Shown here: in pieces, positions 4,996 through 21,049 of the stretch | Layout: each line of letters begins with the position of its first letter | Position numbering within the stretch: position 1 is the first letter of the stretch | From: a virus | Reading direction: 5' to 3' (one strand) | Length of the DNA: 21,767 nucleotides | Virus record (IMG/VR): IMGVR_UViG_3300046524_000125 | Coordinates: 1-21,767 of that record | Translations under genes and position numbers: made by a program | Notes under the pieces: generated by a model | Databases searched by the model: none | Seen by the model: only the letters and a program-made list of their open reading frames with translations | Told to the model about the DNA's origin: nothing

Positions 4996-7068
4996 TTATG
5001 CCTTAGCGTGCGCCTTCGTCTTCTGCGCTTGGATGGCTACCGTGCGGTCCTCGTGAGCGTTGTGGGCCTGAAGGGCTGTCTGGGCCTTCTGGAGCTGTAG
5101 CTCAGCCTCATCATGGATGATGCGGTGTGCCGTGTCGGCGTCCTGCCGGTTGTTGGTCCGGTCGTGGTCGAGAATCTTCATCGTCAGGTCGTGACGCTTC
5201 AGATCATTCTTCTGCTGACCTTCGATAACCAACCGCTGTTCCTTAGCCTGCGCACTCTGCGCGGTCATAACAGTTGCCTGTGCAGTGATCTGCTTGGCTT
5301 GAGCTTCCTGCATCTTGATCGGGTCAGGCTGCGGCTGCGGAGGCGGTGCATTCGGATTGAGGTATGCGGGCCAGCGCGTGAAGTTCTTCATCTTCGCGAT
5401 GTCCGACAGCATCTGATAACGCTGTTGTGGGCCGAACATGTTGCCCAGCGCCGGGTCCTTAGCCAGCATCTGGTAACCCTGCCCAAGCTCAGCTGCCGCC
5501 ATGTCCTTCTCGCCGTAGCCGAGGTGTTGGCTAACAGTGCAAGTCTTGCGGTCGGTCCACTGATGGACGTTGCACTTGAGCGGAGCACCGGCAACCTCAA
5601 TGAACTCAGGCTGCTTGACGTGCAGGATGGCCAGCCGGATGACTTCGATCATCAGGGGCACAAGGAAGTTGTTGGCGAAGTTGCGGGCCATAATCTTAGC
5701 TCGCTGGCCACTCGCCTTCATCATGTTGTCCACCAGACCCTGAGAGTTCTGGGTACTGATGGCGTCCTTGTTGAGACCCTGAGACAGAGCGGAGATGCCC
5801 GTAGACTTCTCGTTCGAAGTGTCGAGCAGCTGGAGCGTCTGATAGATGTACGGGTTCAGGTTGGCCTGCGGGAGAGCCGCAACGCTATCCGGGCGCCGCA
5901 CGTTCACGATGCCGCCGAGGCGGTTGTCGAGAAGCTCGCGCGGGTTCATCAGGCCACCATTGACGACCGCATAGCGCGGGTTCGTGGTGACGGCAGTGTG
6001 ATCCAGCACGCCGCGCATAAGCACGGTCTTAGCGTTCTGCACGGGCACTACGCGGGCAGCGAAGTTGTCACCATAAAACGTACCATGAACCGGCAGCGGC
6101 ACATAGACTACGAAGGGGGCCTTATCGATTTCCTGCGGCTCGTCTAGAAGCTTGTCGCCCGCCGTGCAGATTTTATAAAGGCGAACACCCTTCGACTTAT
6201 CGATCCGCATACGAACGTAGTGTTCATACAGAACAAGATAGTCCATCTCAGTTTGGATAGGGCTATCATAGGTCTCTGCGGCCTTAGTCGGGCCCGTCCT
6301 AGCTAATACTTCCGGGGAGAACAGTAGCTCCTTTGCGTCGTCCGTGGGGAGCGACATAACGAGCTTCTTGTCATACCCCATGTCGATCAGATCAGCGCGG
6401 GTCTTTGGGGTTCGATGGGCACAATAAGATGCGTCCTCGACACAGCGGGCCAGCGGGTCAATCAGGAACTCTTCAGGCGCCAGCACGTCAATAGCGACGT
6501 AGCTACAGTCTTTCTTTCTGATCAGCGTGCCGCTGTACAGCCCAGTCTGAGGGTCCTGTGTAGCGTCGAACTCGTCTACATCGTCCTGTGCCGCGATGCC
6601 GTGCGCGGTCATTTCATCGATAGGGCCGAAAGATTCTTCTGTCGTCTCGAACTTCTCGGACCAATAGACCTTTGCCGTACCGGCGCGGGAAATGAGAGCG
6701 TTGTAGATTACGTCAGAGAAAACCTGATACCCCGGGTTCTTCCTCCAGATGCAGTAGGAGGCGTACTCGGTTGCAACCAGACAGTCCTGAACGTTCATTT
6801 GATTGTCGGGGTCGAACTTGGCGATATTGTCGCCAGTCGCGAACACCTCCAGCAACTGCGCCTGCTGCATCCGAACACTGTCGTACACGTCTTGCGAAAC
6901 GAAGCTAGAAGAGCCTTCGGAGTTGCGCTTGGGCCACTCGCCGTTCAAATACCGATTTACCCGCTCGCGCTCGATGCTCAACTTCTCCTGAGCCCAACCC
7001 ACCGCGTCACGGCTTTTGGAAAGCACTCGCGCTAAAATATCATCATCGCTAATGCGATCCGCAGCCAT
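4996..7068 (-). CDS. Portal protein (P22/SU10 type)
   Basis: At 690 residues it is close to P22-like portals. The dodecameric portal is the DNA channel at one capsid vertex and docks the terminase. The N-terminal half shows the pattern of P22/SU10 portals (SSSFVSQDVYDSVRMQQAQL; VLAPEEFLIDPLARCVEDAS; the CAHRTPKTRADLIDMGYD region). A middle segment with PFVVYVPLPVHGTFYGDN and the long helix around STGISALSQGLNKDAIS follow. The last 110 residues are Gln/Ala/Lys/Asp-rich helix, as expected of a barrel domain. The ATG at 7068 lies inside the end of the nuclease gene (20-base overlap) with AGAGAAA upstream. The call is firm from residue pattern and position. Confidence 0.9.
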   Translation of the reverse strand: MAADRISDDDILARVLSKSRDAVGWAQEKLSIERERVNRYLNGEWPKRNSEGSSSFVSQDVYDSVRMQQAQLLEVFATGDNIAKFDPDNQMNVQDCLVATEYASYCIWRKNPGYQVFSDVIYNALISRAGTAKVYWSEKFETTEESFGPIDEMTAHGIAAQDDVDEFDATQDPQTGLYSGTLIRKKDCSYVAIDVLAPEEFLIDPLARCVEDASYCAHRTPKTRADLIDMGYDKKLVMSLPTDDAKELLFSPEVLARTGPTKAAETYDSPIQTEMDYLVLYEHYVRMRIDKSKGVRLYKICTAGDKLLDEPQEIDKAPFVVYVPLPVHGTFYGDNFAARVVPVQNAKTVLMRGVLDHTAVTTNPRYAVVNGGLMNPRELLDNRLGGIVNVRRPDSVAALPQANLNPYIYQTLQLLDTSNEKSTGISALSQGLNKDAISTQNSQGLVDNMMKASGQRAKIMARNFANNFLVPLMIEVIRLAILHVKQPEFIEVAGAPLKCNVHQWTDRKTCTVSQHLGYGEKDMAAAELGQGYQMLAKDPALGNMFGPQQRYQMLSDIAKMKNFTRWPAYLNPNAPPPQPQPDPIKMQEAQAKQITAQATVMTAQSAQAKEQRLVIEGQQKNDLKRHDLTMKILDHDRTNNRQDADTAHRIIHDEAELQLQKAQTALQAHNAHEDRTVAIQAQKTKAHAKA

Positions 7069-7504
7069 TATGTTTCTCTAAGTAATGTATAGCTTGTGCC
7101 AATGTGTGACTATTATCTCCGAATAGACCCAGCGCTACGTTGCACTTGTGGCACAACACGCCGCGCACTTTCCCTGTGGTGTGGCAGTGGTCTACGTTCC
7201 AGTCCCTGTTAGCTCCGGGGCTGTCGGCTGCGCATATGGCGCATTTGAAACCCTGCTTCTCGAACAGGGCGTCACGCTCAGCTACTGTGATGCCGTAGTT
7301 GCGCTGTAGTTGCTCGTCCGGGTGCTCAGCTCGCCACTTTTGCATGTATTGTTTGCGGCGAGCCTTGAAGGCCGGATCATTCTTACGCTTCTCGTAGCTG
7401 CGCCGATTAGCTTCGCTCTGTTTCTGCTTCTTTTCGTCGTCAGATTGCGTTGACGTAGAGTTCTTGGATGTTTTCAACGGGGGTCCATTTCCCCTCGCTG
7501 GCAT
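7049..7504 (-). CDS. Recombination endonuclease VII-family HNH nuclease
   Basis: The 151-residue protein carries the T4 endonuclease VII pattern: C88-x2-C91 and C118-x2-C121 as zinc ligands, with DHCH at 105-108 and N122 after CHKC (the D, H and N that are catalytic in the T4 enzyme). The N-terminal 60 residues are Lys/Arg-rich (KKQKQSEANRRSYEKRKND), as in phage relatives. Family members cut branched DNA and other distorted DNA. It sits between the terminase and portal, a place favoured by free-standing HNH nucleases, and overlaps the terminase end by 65 bases in another frame. The ATG at 7504 lacks a ribosome site; a TTG at 7477, 13 bases after GAGGGG, is an alternative, so the first nine residues are doubtful. 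Confidence 0.85.
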   Translation of the reverse strand: MPARGNGPPLKTSKNSTSTQSDDEKKQKQSEANRRSYEKRKNDPAFKARRKQYMQKWRAEHPDEQLQRNYGITVAERDALFEKQGFKCAICAADSPGANRDWNVDHCHTTGKVRGVLCHKCNVALGLFGDNSHTLAQAIHYLEKHNGCGSH

Positions 7505-9092
7505 ACGCGGCTAACGCAAGCGCCATCACTGCGTCATCGTGGGCGCCACCTTCGGCTTCCATTTTGCCGCTCTCAGTGACCACAAAGGTCAACATTTCTT
7601 CGAGGGTATTCGTGTCGTTAATTTCAATTTCTTTGTTACGGTCGAAGGCGCGCAACTTGTCGATCATCAGCGGCTTCGTTTTCTCGGACGTGAAAACACC
7701 GAGGTTCAATGTCTCTTTATCGACTTCAACAGTCCCTTCGGTCACATCCAAATAGATGTTCGGGTACTGCTGGTCCCGCAGCTCAACACAGGTTACTAGC
7801 CCGTGATTGTTACGTTCTGGCACCAATAGCGCTTCGTTGAAATAGTACCCAAGTGCGACCAATATGTCAGCGAACACGTCGGGGTGTACTGTGCCGCGCC
7901 ACACCGCTACTTGCCGTAGCTGGCTATCGAGCACCTGAGCTACGCTGGGGTCACTGGGGCGGCCCTTTACGCCGCTTCGCAAACCCATGCCAACGTCGGC
8001 GCCGATGGTGTACGTCTCTTTCTCGTCGCGCTCGCGGTAGACCTTAAGCTCACCACGGGGATGATCCCGCAGCTTGCGTAGCGGTAGTCGCTTTCCGGTA
8101 TCGTGGTCATAGACCTCCTCAACAGCCATCTGCCTGATCGGCGTCTTTGGGGTCTTCAGCCGTTCAACAATGTAGTCAGGGTTGAATATTGGGCGACCGG
8201 TCGAGATGAAGGCTTCCTCGGGGGTCAGCGGATATTCCTGCTTGAACATGTCCGCGCCGTTGAGGGCAATCTTTCTCCTGCGCCACCATAGCTGCTCGTT
8301 GTCAACGTCGATGCCGTAGAGCCGCTTAGCTAGTTCAACTACAGCTTCCTCTTCAGGCACCCGCACGAAGTGAGCTGGCACGGTGGTGTCGCGGTAATCA
8401 TCGCTCTCCACCCACGCGCTGAAGAACAGCTCGTAGCCACTCTCGCCACTCTTGGCGACTTTGTACTGCTCGTAGAACACGCCGGTCATGCCGTTAGCTG
8501 TGCTCTCAAGGAACGCAGCGGTACCGGGCTTGTCGGGCACGGCCTGAATGAGACCGTTGAAGTTGTTCTGTGCGAACGTGTCTGGCCAGAAGGCAACCTC
8601 GGACAAATGTACGGTAGTGAACGTTTCGCCGCGAGCAACGCCTTTGCCGCCCGCCGTAGCAACACGCAAACCACTGTCCAACTCAGAGAACACCAACTCG
8701 GTACGCGAAGAGTACTTCGTGGACGGCTGGACAACCTTCGGAACGTTGCTGTGAATGCGGTGGTACATGTCGAAGAGCGTCGTGGTGCTCTCGGCAACGT
8801 GGGCCATAACGAGACCCTTCTGGGCCTTGCGCTGGCTTAGCCAGAAGTACTGCCACGCGGAGATAACGGTGCTTAGTCCCTGCTGCCGGGCCTTCACAAC
8901 CACGAAGCGGACCTTACCGGTGCGCTGCTGCTGATCGATGATCCGTTCAGCAAAACGCTTCTGGACGCGGTTTAGGAGCAGTGGCGCGATGGTGCCGTCT
9001 TTGGTTCTGATCTTGACGCAGTTCGCGCAGTAGAAGGTGAAATCGTCTCGGAGGCGCTTTCGCGTCTCAATCTGTTTCGGCGTCATCGCCAT
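7440..9092 (-). CDS. terL: Terminase large subunit
   Basis: The 550-residue protein is the ATP-driven DNA packaging motor and nuclease. A Walker A-like KARQQGLST is at 67-75, Walker B TTVHLSEVAFW at 159-169 with acidic E165, and a coupling motif LESTANG at 195-201. The nuclease domain shows TIGADVG with D366, PERNNHG with E426, and GAHDD at 516-520. The length and domain order are normal. The ATG at 9092 has AGGAG eight bases upstream and overlaps the preceding gene by 26 bases. Its 3' end overlaps the endonuclease VII-family gene. The identification is firm; the packaging mode (cos, pac or terminal repeats) cannot be read from it. Confidence 0.93.
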   Translation of the reverse strand: MAMTPKQIETRKRLRDDFTFYCANCVKIRTKDGTIAPLLLNRVQKRFAERIIDQQQRTGKVRFVVVKARQQGLSTVISAWQYFWLSQRKAQKGLVMAHVAESTTTLFDMYHRIHSNVPKVVQPSTKYSSRTELVFSELDSGLRVATAGGKGVARGETFTTVHLSEVAFWPDTFAQNNFNGLIQAVPDKPGTAAFLESTANGMTGVFYEQYKVAKSGESGYELFFSAWVESDDYRDTTVPAHFVRVPEEEAVVELAKRLYGIDVDNEQLWWRRRKIALNGADMFKQEYPLTPEEAFISTGRPIFNPDYIVERLKTPKTPIRQMAVEEVYDHDTGKRLPLRKLRDHPRGELKVYRERDEKETYTIGADVGMGLRSGVKGRPSDPSVAQVLDSQLRQVAVWRGTVHPDVFADILVALGYYFNEALLVPERNNHGLVTCVELRDQQYPNIYLDVTEGTVEVDKETLNLGVFTSEKTKPLMIDKLRAFDRNKEIEINDTNTLEEMLTFVVTESGKMEAEGGAHDDAVMALALAAYASEGKWTPVENIQELYVNAI

Positions 9093-17100: not shown

Positions 17101-17412
17101 CGTGGGTCCTAGGGTACATAGGGCCCAGAGGGGCCTTTAGGGGACAGTGGAAATGGGGGAGTGGGACAGGTAATTGCAAATTGCTAGCTACTAGCTACAA
17201 ACTTCTGTCTCACATAGGTAACTAATGGTACCTAAAGGTCCCTCAGAGGTTTCTCTAAGGGGTGGTAATTTGCTACTACTTGGTATCCCTAGGGGCCATA
17301 CGTTCCACGAGGGTACATTGGGTTCCCTAGGGTACTAGCTGTAGTACAGGGGTCTTTGAGAGGACATCGTGGCCCTCTTCTCTCTATACGTGAGCATGTT
17401 TGCGCTGTAAGT

Positions 17413-17670
17413 CATTGATATCATTGGAGAACAGGGGTAAAAAAGGGCCATTTGGGACCTGAGGGTTCCGTTGGGACCCTACGGTACTTCTGGCGAAGCA
17501 CACCGCCCTGTTCAGCCGAGCAGAGGCCATGGGCTTTAGCCCTCGATTTTGGAACTGGGGGCCCCGAAAGGAGGGCCCGGGGGCCCCATGCCCGGCCGGA
17601 GTCCCTTTGGCTTCGCTGTGCCCCCCCGCCAGCTGCCCCCGCGCCATAGCTAACCCATTGATATCATTGG
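17413..17670. repeat. 15-bp direct repeats flanking a GC-rich segment
   Basis: CATTGATATCATTGG occurs exactly at 17413-17427 and 17656-17670, 243 bases apart start to start; its centre TGATATCA is palindromic. The sequence between is markedly GC-rich. It contains GGGGGCCCC twice (17557-17565 and 17579-17587), the hairpin GGGCTTTAGCCC (about 17531-17542), and GCGAAGC (17493-17499) with its complement GCTTCGC (17610-17616). The repeats could bound an insertion or be paired protein sites. Confidence 0.75.
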
Positions 17671-17897
17671 GCAACATGCGGATGCATTAACCGATAGGGG
17701 ATAGCTAGGGATAGCCAGCCTATCAAGTGGTAGGGCCGATACGGTCATATAGTTGCACACTGGCCATGGTCGGCGTTTGGCAGAGCGTAGACAGATAGGC
17801 CCTAGCTGCCCCTAGGAAGCCCATAGAGCCCGATGCGCCTATGGCTAGCTAGTCGTGCCCCATGCTGCCTCATGGCCCCTAGCTGCCCTCGGCTGGC

Positions 17898-17941
17898 GGT
17901 TTCAACAGCTAGGCGCAATCCGGCTCGCAACTGTTGAAACC
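17898..17941. promoter_or_regulatory. Perfect 11-bp inverted repeat upstream of the ATPase gene
   Basis: GGTTTCAACAG at 17898-17908 and CTGTTGAAACC at 17931-17941 are exact reverse complements with 22 bases between them. The site is about 150 bp before the ATPase start. No T tract follows, so it is not a normal terminator; an operator or recombinase-type site is more likely. Confidence 0.7.
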
Positions 17942-18087
17942 AATGGCCGCTATGCGCCCTTGGAATCCCTGTTATGCATTGTCCAGAAAGTATGCTTTGC
18001 GCAACGATTAGCTATTGCCAACTAGTGCTCGATAGTGTTCATAGGGGCAAGGCCGAACACACACACTGACTAACCGGAGCTAGACCA

Positions 18088-19353
18088 ATGACAACAACGA
18101 CCGACGATACCTTCCGCACCTATGAGACTGCGCTGGAACTCGGATGCGAGCGCGGCGACCTTCGCTTCTCCCTGATGGCGCAAGAGCGTAAGCACCCCGC
18201 TAAGCTCGCCTTGCGCAAATGGCTGTCAGCTAATGGCGTCCCCTCCACCTATGCCGCGCGCCTCTCATTCGCTGAGCTAGAGAACGCTTGGAACGATACC
18301 AGCGATGCCAGCCTCAATATCCTTCGCTTGTCACAAGGCGCTGCTACTAGCTCCGCTGCGCACGCTGCCCCCGCAACCCCTTCCACCGCAAACCCCTTTG
18401 AGGAACCAATGACCATTCATCCCCACACTACTGCGCACACTGCCCCTGCTAGCACAGCTAACCCGCTTGATGGCTTGATGGCCTACATCAATGCCAACAT
18501 GGCAGGCGCTGTTAATGAGGACAGGGTGCGCGCTATCGTTGAGGAAGCCTTGTCCGGTGTTGCACCGCGAGCCATTGAAATCATCAGCGACATGGGCATG
18601 GTCCGCATTGAGGAACGGACCAACCCGGTATTTGATCGCGTGCTTAAGTTGATCGCTTGCGGCGAGAACGTGCTCATTGTTGGTCCGGCCGGTTGCGGCA
18701 AAACCCACCTTGTGGAGCAAGTAGCCAAGGCGCTTGACCGTCGGTTCGGAATGCTTTCGGGCAGCGCAGGGGCAAGCGAAAGCCAAATCATGGGTTGGTT
18801 GCTGCCTTCCGACAATGGCAAGTTTGCTTATCAGCCGTCCGAGTTCATTGAACTGTACGAAGGCGGAAACTCCATCTTCCTATTTGATGAATACGACGCT
18901 TTCGACGGCAACATGCTGCTTTGTGCTAACTCTGCCTTGGCCAATGGGCATATCACTGTGCCTCAGCGTCTTGGTAATCAGCGCGTCAACCGGGGTGCAA
19001 ACGTTGGCATTGTGGCCACGGCGAACACTTACGGTACAGGTGCCGATCCTATCTATTCAGGCCGTAATCAGCTGGACGGCGCTACGCTTGATCGTTTCAT
19101 CGTGGTTGAAATGACCTATGACGAAAAGCTCGAAACCGAAATGGCCATGATTGGCGGATTGTACCCGGAACAATTGGGACGCTTCCACAGGCTTCGCGAC
19201 AAGGTAGCTCAGGCCGGTTTGTTGCGCGTTATCTCAACCCGCGCGCTGAAAAAGACGATTAGCAACATGCGTTGCGGGATGGATTTTGGCGCGGCATTGC
19301 AAGACTTAACCACGGGCTGGAGCGCGGACGAAAAGCAGCGGGTGGGCTTCTAA
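18088..19353 (+). CDS. MoxR/CobS-like AAA+ ATPase
   Basis: The 421-residue protein has a typical AAA+ core at about 175-400: Walker A GPAGCGKT at 199-206, Walker B FLFDEYD at 264-270, sensor-1-like IVATAN at 308-313, LDRF at 334-337 with a probable arginine finger, and a sensor-2-like STRAL at 383-387. The overall pattern is that of the MoxR/CobS/NorQ branch, whose members remodel partner complexes, often through VWA-domain proteins. Residues 36-70 (ALRKWLSANGVPSTYAARLS) look like a small helix-extended-helix or SAP-like domain, followed by an Ala/Thr/Pro linker to 130. The start has GGAG and CCA before ATG, matching the next gene. It is paired with the VWA-like gene downstream. A phage chaperone-like role is inferred; the target is unknown. 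Confidence 0.88.
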   Translation: MTTTTDDTFRTYETALELGCERGDLRFSLMAQERKHPAKLALRKWLSANGVPSTYAARLSFAELENAWNDTSDASLNILRLSQGAATSSAAHAAPATPSTANPFEEPMTIHPHTTAHTAPASTANPLDGLMAYINANMAGAVNEDRVRAIVEEALSGVAPRAIEIISDMGMVRIEERTNPVFDRVLKLIACGENVLIVGPAGCGKTHLVEQVAKALDRRFGMLSGSAGASESQIMGWLLPSDNGKFAYQPSEFIELYEGGNSIFLFDEYDAFDGNMLLCANSALANGHITVPQRLGNQRVNRGANVGIVATANTYGTGADPIYSGRNQLDGATLDRFIVVEMTYDEKLETEMAMIGGLYPEQLGRFHRLRDKVAQAGLLRVISTRALKKTISNMRCGMDFGAALQDLTTGWSADEKQRVGF

Positions 19354-19362
19354 TCGCGAAAA

Positions 19363-19399
19363 AGGGTTGCTTTGGGTATTGACTAGCTAGAGCAACCCT
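19363..19399 (+). promoter_or_regulatory. 9-bp inverted repeat bracketing the promoter of the VWA-like gene
   Basis: AGGGTTGCT (19363-19371) and AGCAACCCT (19391-19399) are exact reverse complements. With wobble pairs the RNA stem could extend to about 13 pairs. The -35 box lies in the loop and the -10 box begins just after the second arm. It may act as an operator or as an RNA attenuator between the ATPase and partner genes; no strong T tract follows. Confidence 0.6.
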
Positions 19400-19406
19400 A
19401 TATTCT
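19379..19406 (+). promoter_or_regulatory. Sigma70-type promoter for the VWA-like gene
   Basis: TTGACT at 19379-19384, a 16-base spacer and TATTCT at 19401-19406 are close to the consensus boxes. The expected start of transcription is near 19413, followed by GGAG at 19421 and ATG at 19435. It would let the partner gene be expressed separately from the ATPase. Confidence 0.55.
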
Positions 19407-19434
19407 CAAATCACCCAAACGGAGCTAGAGACCA

Positions 19435-20262
19435 ATGACAACCCATTGCCCCAACTTCCTTGATGCACGCTATGGCACGTTGCGCGACTATATCGACGCA
19501 GCAAAGATTGCCCCGCGTTGCCGTGCCAATGAGAAGCTAACCGGAGATTGGGATAGGGGCGAAAGCCTAATGGCCGATTGGGCCGGAGCGGCTAACACTG
19601 CCGATGCAGCGGCTAAGCTTACCGCGCCTTATGAGGCAGGCTCTGCAATCATCAGCCGCATTGAGAAGGCAGCTGCTAGCATCACACTGCCCCCCAAGAT
19701 GGACACGCGGCGCCGTAGGGTGCGTGGCGATCATGGGGATAGTCTAGACATTCATTCGGTCTATCGTGGACAGCTAGACCGCGCATGGGAACGTATGGGC
19801 AAGCGGCAAGTTACTGCCCCTCCTATGGTCTCGATTGTGATCAATTCAATCATTCAATCCGATCAAGACAAGACTGTCATCAGCTATCGCGGCGCGGTCG
19901 GTATCGTGCTCTGTCAGTTGCTGGAACGTTTTGGCTATCGCGTGCGCTTGGTAGTGGCACGCGGAGGGGAAGCTAGGACAGCATATGGCGATGACGAAAA
20001 GTTTAGCTGCCGCTCTACCATCAAAGACTATGGCAAGCCTCTAGACCGCGAAACGGTTGCTTGTGCCACCCACCCGGCAATGCAGCGCGTTATGGGCATC
20101 CGCTGGACGTGGGCCCATATGCACAGCGGGGGCACCATGTCAGGTTCGGGAGTTGGCGAGGCAGTCCGCGAGAAAGGCGAGATTTTTATCTCTAGCGAAG
20201 TCTACAACGAAGCGAGCGCAATCGCCAAGATCAAGTCTGTCATCAAAGAAATAACCAAATAG
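19435..20262 (+). CDS. VWA-like partner of the AAA+ ATPase (DUF7192-like)
   Basis: The 275-residue protein has an N-terminal helical part (LRDYIDAAKIAPRCRANEKL) and a basic segment RRRRVRGDHGDSLDIHSVY at 92-110. From 130 to about 175 it has a Rossmann-like unit: strand MVSIVINSII, helix AVGIVLCQLLERFGY, strand VRLVVA. This matches the VWA layout in CobT-like and DUF7192-type proteins, but the usual metal site DxSxS reads INSIIQS, so the site looks degenerate. The C-terminal part holds IRWTWAHMHS and EIFISSEVYNEASA. It follows the ATPase with its own promoter and nearly the same leader and first codons. A joint complex with the ATPase is inferred from this pairing; the family name is from memory of pattern. 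Confidence 0.7.
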   Translation: MTTHCPNFLDARYGTLRDYIDAAKIAPRCRANEKLTGDWDRGESLMADWAGAANTADAAAKLTAPYEAGSAIISRIEKAAASITLPPKMDTRRRRVRGDHGDSLDIHSVYRGQLDRAWERMGKRQVTAPPMVSIVINSIIQSDQDKTVISYRGAVGIVLCQLLERFGYRVRLVVARGGEARTAYGDDEKFSCRSTIKDYGKPLDRETVACATHPAMQRVMGIRWTWAHMHSGGTMSGSGVGEAVREKGEIFISSEVYNEASAIAKIKSVIKEITK

Positions 20263-20374: not shown

Positions 20375-20620
20375 ATGAAGCTATTCGCCGTTACCGTGCT
20401 CTACATCAAAACCGATGGTACCGATTGCTCTGCCGTGGCCATGGTTGGCGCCCCTAGCGCCCTTGAGGCTATCGACGCGGCAGCGGAAGGCGTGCGTGCG
20501 CTACCCCATTGCCGGGAGGTGCAGGGCGGCGCTTGTGAGGAGCTAGCTGACCTCGGCTCTAACGCGCGAGAGCCGCAGGCGCCAGCGGCAACCCATCCCA
20601 CACACGCCACCGTCAACTAA
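20375..20620 (+). CDS. 81-aa small early protein of unknown function
   Basis: This is the first of a series of very small plus-strand genes. Residues 1-45 look like a compact alpha/beta unit (MKLFAVTVLYIKTDGTD; SALEAIDAAAEGVRALPHCR), similar in feel to many small phage host-interaction proteins. The last about 20 residues (NAREPQAPAATHPTHATVN) are low-complexity. They include the AACGCGCGAG element that elsewhere acts as a gene leader, so the tail could be a read-through extension. GAGG lies nine bases before the ATG. The family is not recognised. Confidence 0.6.
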   Translation: MKLFAVTVLYIKTDGTDCSAVAMVGAPSALEAIDAAAEGVRALPHCREVQGGACEELADLGSNAREPQAPAATHPTHATVN

Positions 20621-20779
20621 CCCCAACGCGCGAGGACTATACCGATGTGGAAACTTATCGCCCTCTGCCGAGGCTATCGTGCGGCATACGATGTGGAAGA
20701 TGGTCGCCTAGTTGTTCATAACGAGCGCACAGGCCGCTGGTTTTATTCGTGGCGTGAAGCTGCGCTCTAACGCGCGAGG
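20561..20779 (+). repeat. Recurrent leader element AACGCGCGAG
   Basis: The exact ten bases occur at 20561-20570 (inside the 81-aa gene), 20625-20634 (before the 41-aa gene), 20769-20778 (before the 69-aa gene) and again at 21422-21431. A one-mismatch copy (AACGCGCTAG) is at 21007-21016, and TAATCGCGAGG precedes the 81-aa gene. In three cases GAGG is nine bases from ATG, so it includes the ribosome site. Confidence 0.8.
20645..20770 (+). CDS. 41-aa small early protein
   Basis: ATG at 20645 to TAA at 20768-20770 encodes 41 residues. The protein is aromatic and charged, with LIALCRGYRAAYDVEDGRLV followed by NERTGRWFYSWREAAL; it may form a small beta-hairpin plus helix. It has a full AACGCGCGAGG leader with GAGG nine bases before ATG, and its stop codon overlaps the leader of the next gene. 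These features make it likely to be real despite its size. No family is recognised. Confidence 0.55.
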   Translation: MWKLIALCRGYRAAYDVEDGRLVVHNERTGRWFYSWREAAL

Positions 20780-20788
20780 GATAACCCA

Positions 20789-20998
20789 ATGAGCCGCCAT
20801 ACAATCACGTTTGAAGAAATGAGCGATTATCTAAATCAGGAGGTTTGGAGCATGGCCGCCTGTAGTTCTAGCGTCCGATCACACAAGAGGCTGGAAGCAA
20901 GCACCAAAGGAATGTTCCGCGTCACAGACGGCGGTGAAATCAAATATCAAGGGCCAAGCTTGGGTGCCGCCGTCGATGCCTACAACGAAACCCCTTAA
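20789..20998 (+). CDS. 69-aa small early protein
   Basis: The 69-residue protein begins MSRHTITFEEMSDYLNQEVW, a helix-rich start. It then has a Ser-rich stretch (ACSSSVRSHKRLEASTKG) and ends in a beta-like segment and helix (MFRVTDGGEIKYQ; GAAVDAYNET). The leader AACGCGCGAGGGATAACCC places GAGG nine bases before ATG. It is followed directly by the degenerate leader at 21007. It is not recognised as a family; a host-takeover role is only a guess from its early position. Confidence 0.6.
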   Translation: MSRHTITFEEMSDYLNQEVWSMAACSSSVRSHKRLEASTKGMFRVTDGGEIKYQGPSLGAAVDAYNETP

Positions 20999-21049
20999 CC
21001 ACCCCCAACGCGCTAGGGATAATTAGCTACAAATAGCTACACAAAGGCA

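Follow-up and report, generated by a model that had tools for sequence, protein, structure and literature searches.

Midasin, CobS, CbbQ, and NorQ are ring ATPases that work with VWA-domain partners. The same general architecture, an AAA+ ring with a VWA/MIDAS adaptor, is found in CbbQ-CbbO, RavA-ViaA, and Rea1/Midasin, all of them cellular and with known targets of their own; Rea1 keeps an intact MIDAS domain. In NorQ-NorD of Paracoccus denitrificans (PDB 9QH6 and 9QHD), whose target is nitric oxide reductase, the VWA domain inserts a finger into the ATPase pore, and NorD with a mutated MIDAS still binds NorQ but no longer activates the target (PMC13036017, PMC9976466). Viral cobST genes are likewise adjacent, one encoding a CobS-like ATPase and the other its VWA partner (PMC8651126, PMC7824862); viral CobT, labeled “peptidase” in T4-like cyanophages, is ~580 to 840 aa long. 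One such “peptidase” beside cobS, in Synechococcus phage Syn19 (L009, 441-2600), is a CobT-like VWA protein with an intact DWSGS and no Pfam match.

Here, we report a computational analysis of a phage gene pair in which an ATPase of the same clade as NorQ is followed by a short protein of Pfam family DUF7192 (PF23822). A literature search found no paper naming DUF7192, for which the Pfam entry lists function unknown, and neither DUF7192 nor phrog_249, the family of the ATPase, was described as part of a MoxR-VWA pair in the literature found. Since cobST and jumbo-phage pairs are already published and DUF7192 is named in no paper found, the apparent novelty lies in a metal-less VWA adaptor that is short and comes with an ATPase lineage of its own. 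We read the two genes as one MoxR-VWA-type machine, a finger-in-pore remodeler that would grip its target without metal (probability, roughly 0.6).

Locus and ATPase

The minus strand of the window (the whole stretch of DNA analyzed, a 21,767-base contig from a virus record) has podovirus-like genes for the head and for packaging (SU10-type portal, major head protein, and terminase; Pfam and phrog matches). The plus-strand gene set starts, past ~1 kb of apparently noncoding sequence, with the ATPase and DUF7192 genes. Both frames were open at the positions given by the initial annotation and are separated by 81 nt. Features of the first gene and the gap were as follows.

18088..19353, plus strand: putative MoxR/CobS-clade AAA+ ATPase gene (421 aa, phrog_249)
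18682..18705, plus strand: Walker A, GPAGCGKT, residues 199-206 (G202, G204, and K205 invariant)
18763..18852, plus strand: putative counterpart, by alignment only, of the helix-2 insert and pore-loop segment of CobS/NorQ, approximately residues 226-255
18877..18891, plus strand: Walker B, FLFDE, residues 264-268 (D267 and E268 invariant)
19024..19026, plus strand: sensor 1, N313 (invariant)
19093..19095, plus strand: arginine finger, R336, in LDRF (invariant)
19240..19242, plus strand: sensor 2, R385, in STR (invariant)
19363..19399, plus strand: intercistronic hairpin (13-bp helix; dG, −24.8; z, −3.0)

The ATPase matched Pfam AAA_5 (E value, 4.8e-13) and, over its AAA+ part (residues 147-418), phrog_249, labeled “porphyrin biosynthesis” (E value, 2.7e-52). 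The complete AAA+ core that had been claimed at the outset was recovered in full, with Walker A, Walker B, sensor 1, and sensor 2 all conserved in 16 relatives, across which G202, G204, K205, D267, E268, N313, R336, and R385 are invariant. The putative helix-2 insert and pore-loop segment were assigned following a published motif layout (PMC13036017); where the clade has its helix-2 insert hairpin and pre-sensor-2 insert, the alignment shows a candidate region. When a profile of the phage ATPases was compared with PDB sequences, the top matches were Midasin, CobS (E value, 5.9e-32), CbbQ (1.4e-24), and NorQ (7.2e-22), all over the AAA+ module; these matches bear out the MoxR/CobS membership proposed earlier, and by sequence the open reading frame is an AAA+ ATPase of that clade.

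The hairpin lies in the 81-nt gap (19354-19434), is not followed by a T-run, and might serve to make ring and adaptor in unequal amounts. The apparently noncoding divergent region (17101-18087, ~1 kb) holds a 26-nt direct repeat, CATTGATATCATTGG, at 17408 and 17651, and short repeats of the CCCTAGGG type. Downstream of the pair, cassettes that combine a stop with a ribosome site, of the form TAACGCGCGAGG(n)ATG, are repeated between small plus-strand open reading frames (20556-21017; cassettes at 20556, 20620, 20764, and 20992). On the minus strand, an open reading frame at 7049-7504 resembles an HNH endonuclease (by eye only) and overlaps the end of a terminase-like open reading frame (7440-9092).

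Predicted fold, candidate finger, and metal site of the DUF7192 protein

The second open reading frame matched PF23822 far above chance (E value, 7.5e-17; 62 bits against a cutoff of 27) and, on this score, is a DUF7192 member. Its features were as follows.

19435..20262, plus strand: DUF7192 VWA-like partner gene (275 aa; Pfam, AlphaFold, and PDB fold matches)
19717..19806, plus strand: candidate pore finger (residues 95-124), immediately ahead of VWA strand 1; G101, 97% conserved; G112, 74%
19825..19860, plus strand: predicted VWA strand 1 and degenerate MIDAS, MVSIVINSIIQS, residues 131-142 (N137, I139, and Q141 at the DxSxS positions)
20023..20025, plus strand: K197, 87% conserved, end of strand 3
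20086..20088, plus strand: R218, 98% conserved, first turn of a helix, after the loop expected to hold the third MIDAS ligand
20155..20157, plus strand: G241, 95% conserved, in a loop (229-249) of low model confidence

The AlphaFold input for the partner comprised 69 sequences, drawn only from the window and from contigs found by the scans, and gave a model with a pLDDT of 89.2 and a pTM of 0.84. At E values below 1e-3, its only PDB matches were the NorD VWA chains of NorQ-NorD complexes (E value, 4e-5; probability, 1.00). The VIA Z score was 8.8 over 192 residues (5.6 Å) against NorD (9QH6, chain G), followed by 8.0 for Rea1-MIDAS and then ~5 for ordinary VWA domains; values below 8 can reflect a common arrangement. 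Against viral predicted structures, DUF7192 proteins ranked first and CobT/VWFA proteins second. A distant member (L082), modeled separately with AlphaFold, gave the same ranking, with the NorD VWA domain again best (E value, 2.7e-6). Global TM-scores to NorD were low for both models (0.23 to 0.27) and Z only moderate, and we assign the VWA fold because of the rank order, its repetition on the distant member, and an independent profile alignment to CobT, not because of TM-score or Z.

In that alignment (hhalign), DUF7192 and phage CobT were in register from the finger through strand 1/MIDAS to strand 2, with E values of 2e-4 to 5e-4 and a probability of only 31 to 46%; the negative control, DUF7192 against the ATPase, gave 0.26. 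A bridging member (L024) matched the CobT HMM at 4e-5, above every shuffled or reversed control. Pfam VWA did not match the window protein, the CobT Pfam domains (CobT/CobT_C) matched neither it nor other DUF7192 proteins, and the DUF7192 profile found nothing credible among PDB sequences. The only NCBIfam match, acrylyl-CoA reductase AcuI, was rejected as far under its cutoff (17.7 versus 440 bits). The DUF7192 protein is thus predicted to have the alternating beta/alpha topology of a VWA domain, with that of NorD the closest, in line with the initial annotation, which had named a VWA fold in a structure model of this protein as a deciding check.

The phage partner has a conserved segment where NorD has its finger, just before VWA strand 1. 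This segment (residues 95-124) is better conserved in the family alignment than the N-terminal or C-terminal parts, and AlphaFold predicts a strand (95-98), a helix (106-110), and a second strand (118-121); in CobT, the corresponding segment directly precedes strand 1. The marks of a finger of NorD/CobT-type partners were therefore all found: register with CobT, G101/G112, and strand-helix-strand.

The metal site differs. The replacement of DxSxS by INSIIQS (residues 136-142), proposed at the outset, was upheld by both the profile alignment to phage CobT and the family alignment, and the window protein reads N-x-I-x-Q at the DxSxS part of the DxSxS-T-D metal motif. DxSxS/T is intact in 2 of 131 nonredundant members from viral and bacterial contigs, which have Asn (56%) or Asp (15%) at the Asp site; in a set of 75 drawn from viral contigs plus isolate phages, 2 are intact and 46 carry Asn for Asp. 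Phage CobT, in contrast, keeps DxSxS in 13 of 13 cases. As judged from these alignments, loss of the metal site is a property of the whole DUF7192 family, not of the window phage alone. Where Asn takes the Asp position and Ser/Thr the remaining two, weak metal binding could persist; this would hold for many members, less so for the window protein. NorD, for its part, is 638 aa long, keeps its MIDAS, and includes a linker and a distinct N-terminal domain, against 275 aa and no MIDAS in the phage partner.

As the finger segment is kept and DxSxS is lost, motor coupling appears to be retained and the metal grip lost. In the machine that we propose, the ATPase would assemble into an AAA+ ring, the DUF7192 protein would serve as adaptor by plugging the ring pore with the finger before VWA strand 1, and ATP-driven ring movements would turn or pull the adaptor with its cargo. 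That the two proteins form a physical complex is very probable, and coupling through a finger in the pore is likely. The hold on the target would be metal independent because the adaptor, unlike CobT and NorD, has lost the metal-coordinating DxSxS; we lean toward such a grip, which may use the near-invariant Arg218 and Lys197. That R218 substitutes for the MIDAS metal is a guess. A broader version, in which invariant R218 takes the charge role of the metal in a metal-free VWA adaptor and the pair is a general remodeler of phage replication complexes in tailed phages of most bacterial phyla, strikes us as doubtful. The family offers a natural experiment on MoxR-VWA machines: it retains the part that couples to the motor and has given up the metal site, the presumed grip on the target, so that the two roles are separated.

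Gene neighborhood and possible target

In Sinorhizobium phage phiM5, the pair heads a strand with polymerase, primase, and helicase genes, and the structural genes lie on the opposite strand. Replication genes also flank the pair or its counterparts elsewhere: helicase/Sak4/primase in crAss cr125_1, DNA polymerase III alpha nearby in a Pseudomonas phage, and gp46 and gp45/gp44 on either side of cyanophage cobT-cobS. The annotated loci in bacterial genomes neighbor clamp loader, helicase, primase, and terminase families; because they sit beside terminase, primase, or clamp loader families, they look like prophages or phage contigs, and a cellular, nonphage version of the pair was rejected on the same grounds. 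The target would most likely belong to the replication stage, as a protein complex of the phage itself or one that it recruits. We put this forward tentatively because the neighbor families are mixed and include terminases, which lie near the pair in some relatives; among viral contigs, no neighbor family was dominant enough to name the target. The main text of a study of Listeria phage CKA15 does not give the expression timing of the pair genes. In two Bacteroidota loci (L190, 4750-5511; L171, 4849-5607), the gene immediately upstream of that for the ATPase encodes phrog_8810, a protein of unknown function (~250 aa) that was matched by 5 of 94 neighbor proteins tallied.

The same terminase genes could point instead to a chaperone that folds or assembles capsid or tail proteins, and virion assembly has been proposed for the MoxR-VWA pairs of T4-like jumbo phages and for p618/p892 of Acidianus two-tailed virus (PMC7824862, PMC7911831). 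We consider this unlikely for the DUF7192 pair, which lies opposite the structural-gene strand in both the window and phiM5 and often neighbors replication genes in prophage-like loci. Nor is either protein noted in the particle proteome in the phiM5 record, in which many structural proteins are. Within the phiM5 ATPase gene, an open reading frame in another frame (L215, 42460-42657) is marked as detected in the particle proteome, possibly by misassignment.

The initial annotation had taken the position of the pair, at the head of the early strand, to suggest a self-contained phage remodeling machine, perhaps one acting on host transcription, replication, or defense complexes. The pair does lead the nonstructural strand in the window and in phiM5, but this failed as a general rule: the gene upstream was divergent at 27 of 73 loci, against a background of 196 of 678 (29%), and the notion of an invariable first place in the operon was rejected. 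Remodeling of a host complex during takeover or counter-defense, e.g., RNA polymerase or a defense complex, would suit that head-of-strand position and a family widespread among phages of unrelated hosts. Conservation across phyla would, however, better fit a target that is phage encoded or very conserved, and PADLOC returned no defense match for the partner and, for the ATPase, nothing beyond generic P-loop matches; we regard a host target as improbable and retain the tentative replication-stage assignment.

Pairing across phages and bacterial genomes

Relatives were reached via the ATPase and then by HMM; as the scans started from the window ATPase, CobT-type relatives are undersampled by design. 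A single-sequence scan of viral contigs with the window DUF7192 protein retrieved nothing, as did a genome scan with the window ATPase sequence alone, whereas an ATPase alignment did retrieve loci. A DUF7192 gene was present at 160 of 165 ATPase loci. Viral contigs contributed 82 of 85 (window included), the other three ending in or soon after the ATPase gene, and bacterial genomes contributed 78 of 80, the exceptions being one contig end and one ATPase broken by a stop. Conserved adjacency, which the initial annotation had singled out as decisive for a functional pair, thus holds in nearly every relative examined. Among isolate phages, the genes directly neighbor each other in those of Sinorhizobium, Staphylococcus, Listeria, and Mycobacterium and in crAss-like phages; a Lactobacillus phage has one small gene between them, and in Acinetobacter phages a single gene on the opposite strand intervenes. 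Counts of records with ATPase and partner agree (Staphylococcus, 236/236; Listeria, 70/70). This distribution, which takes in phages of most major groups of bacteria, points, together with the kept finger segment and the lost metal site, to a widespread phage protein-remodeling machine. Hundreds of phage genomes, those of Staphylococcus, Listeria, and Mycobacterium phages among them, usually label the ATPase “porphyrin biosynthesis” or CobS and the DUF7192 protein hypothetical; if they are read as AAA+ motor and adaptor, a mechanism that can be tested takes the place of a misleading metabolic label, and the pair is present in genetically tractable laboratory phages.

In the ATPase tree, 75 DUF7192-linked and 26 CobT-linked ATPases are split by one branch (SH-aLRT, 99), and partner type switches once, a result matched in 0 of 500 shuffles. 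Such a separation tells against the pair being a CobS-CobT that recruits host CobN for cobalt insertion, even though many phages have this ATPase annotated as CobS/porphyrin biosynthesis and hijacking of CobN has been proposed for viral cobST clusters (PMC8651126). The partner is also without the MIDAS motif, most of CobT, and any CobT Pfam match, and the window encodes no CobN. Staphylococcus, host of the 236 phage records, is not known to have a corrin pathway, and a role in cobalamin synthesis is very improbable.

ATPase and partner distances covary (Mantel r, 0.69; permutation maximum, 0.136), and the two genes appear to be lost together: mycobacteriophage DirkDirk (L011, 1864-2994) has an ATPase truncated after Walker B with no partner found beside it, and a second locus (L149) likewise has a truncated ATPase and lacks the partner. 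Although short collinear blocks may persist among related phages, functionally unrelated neighbors kept together by chance or common descent are very unlikely given 160 of 165 loci in many phyla, codivergence, coloss, and adjacency even where the order is swapped, with DUF7192 directly before the ATPase (L071, 3684-5822; L189, 505-2895). At one further locus (L073, 4661-6424), a single ATPase gene is followed by two tandem DUF7192 open reading frames.
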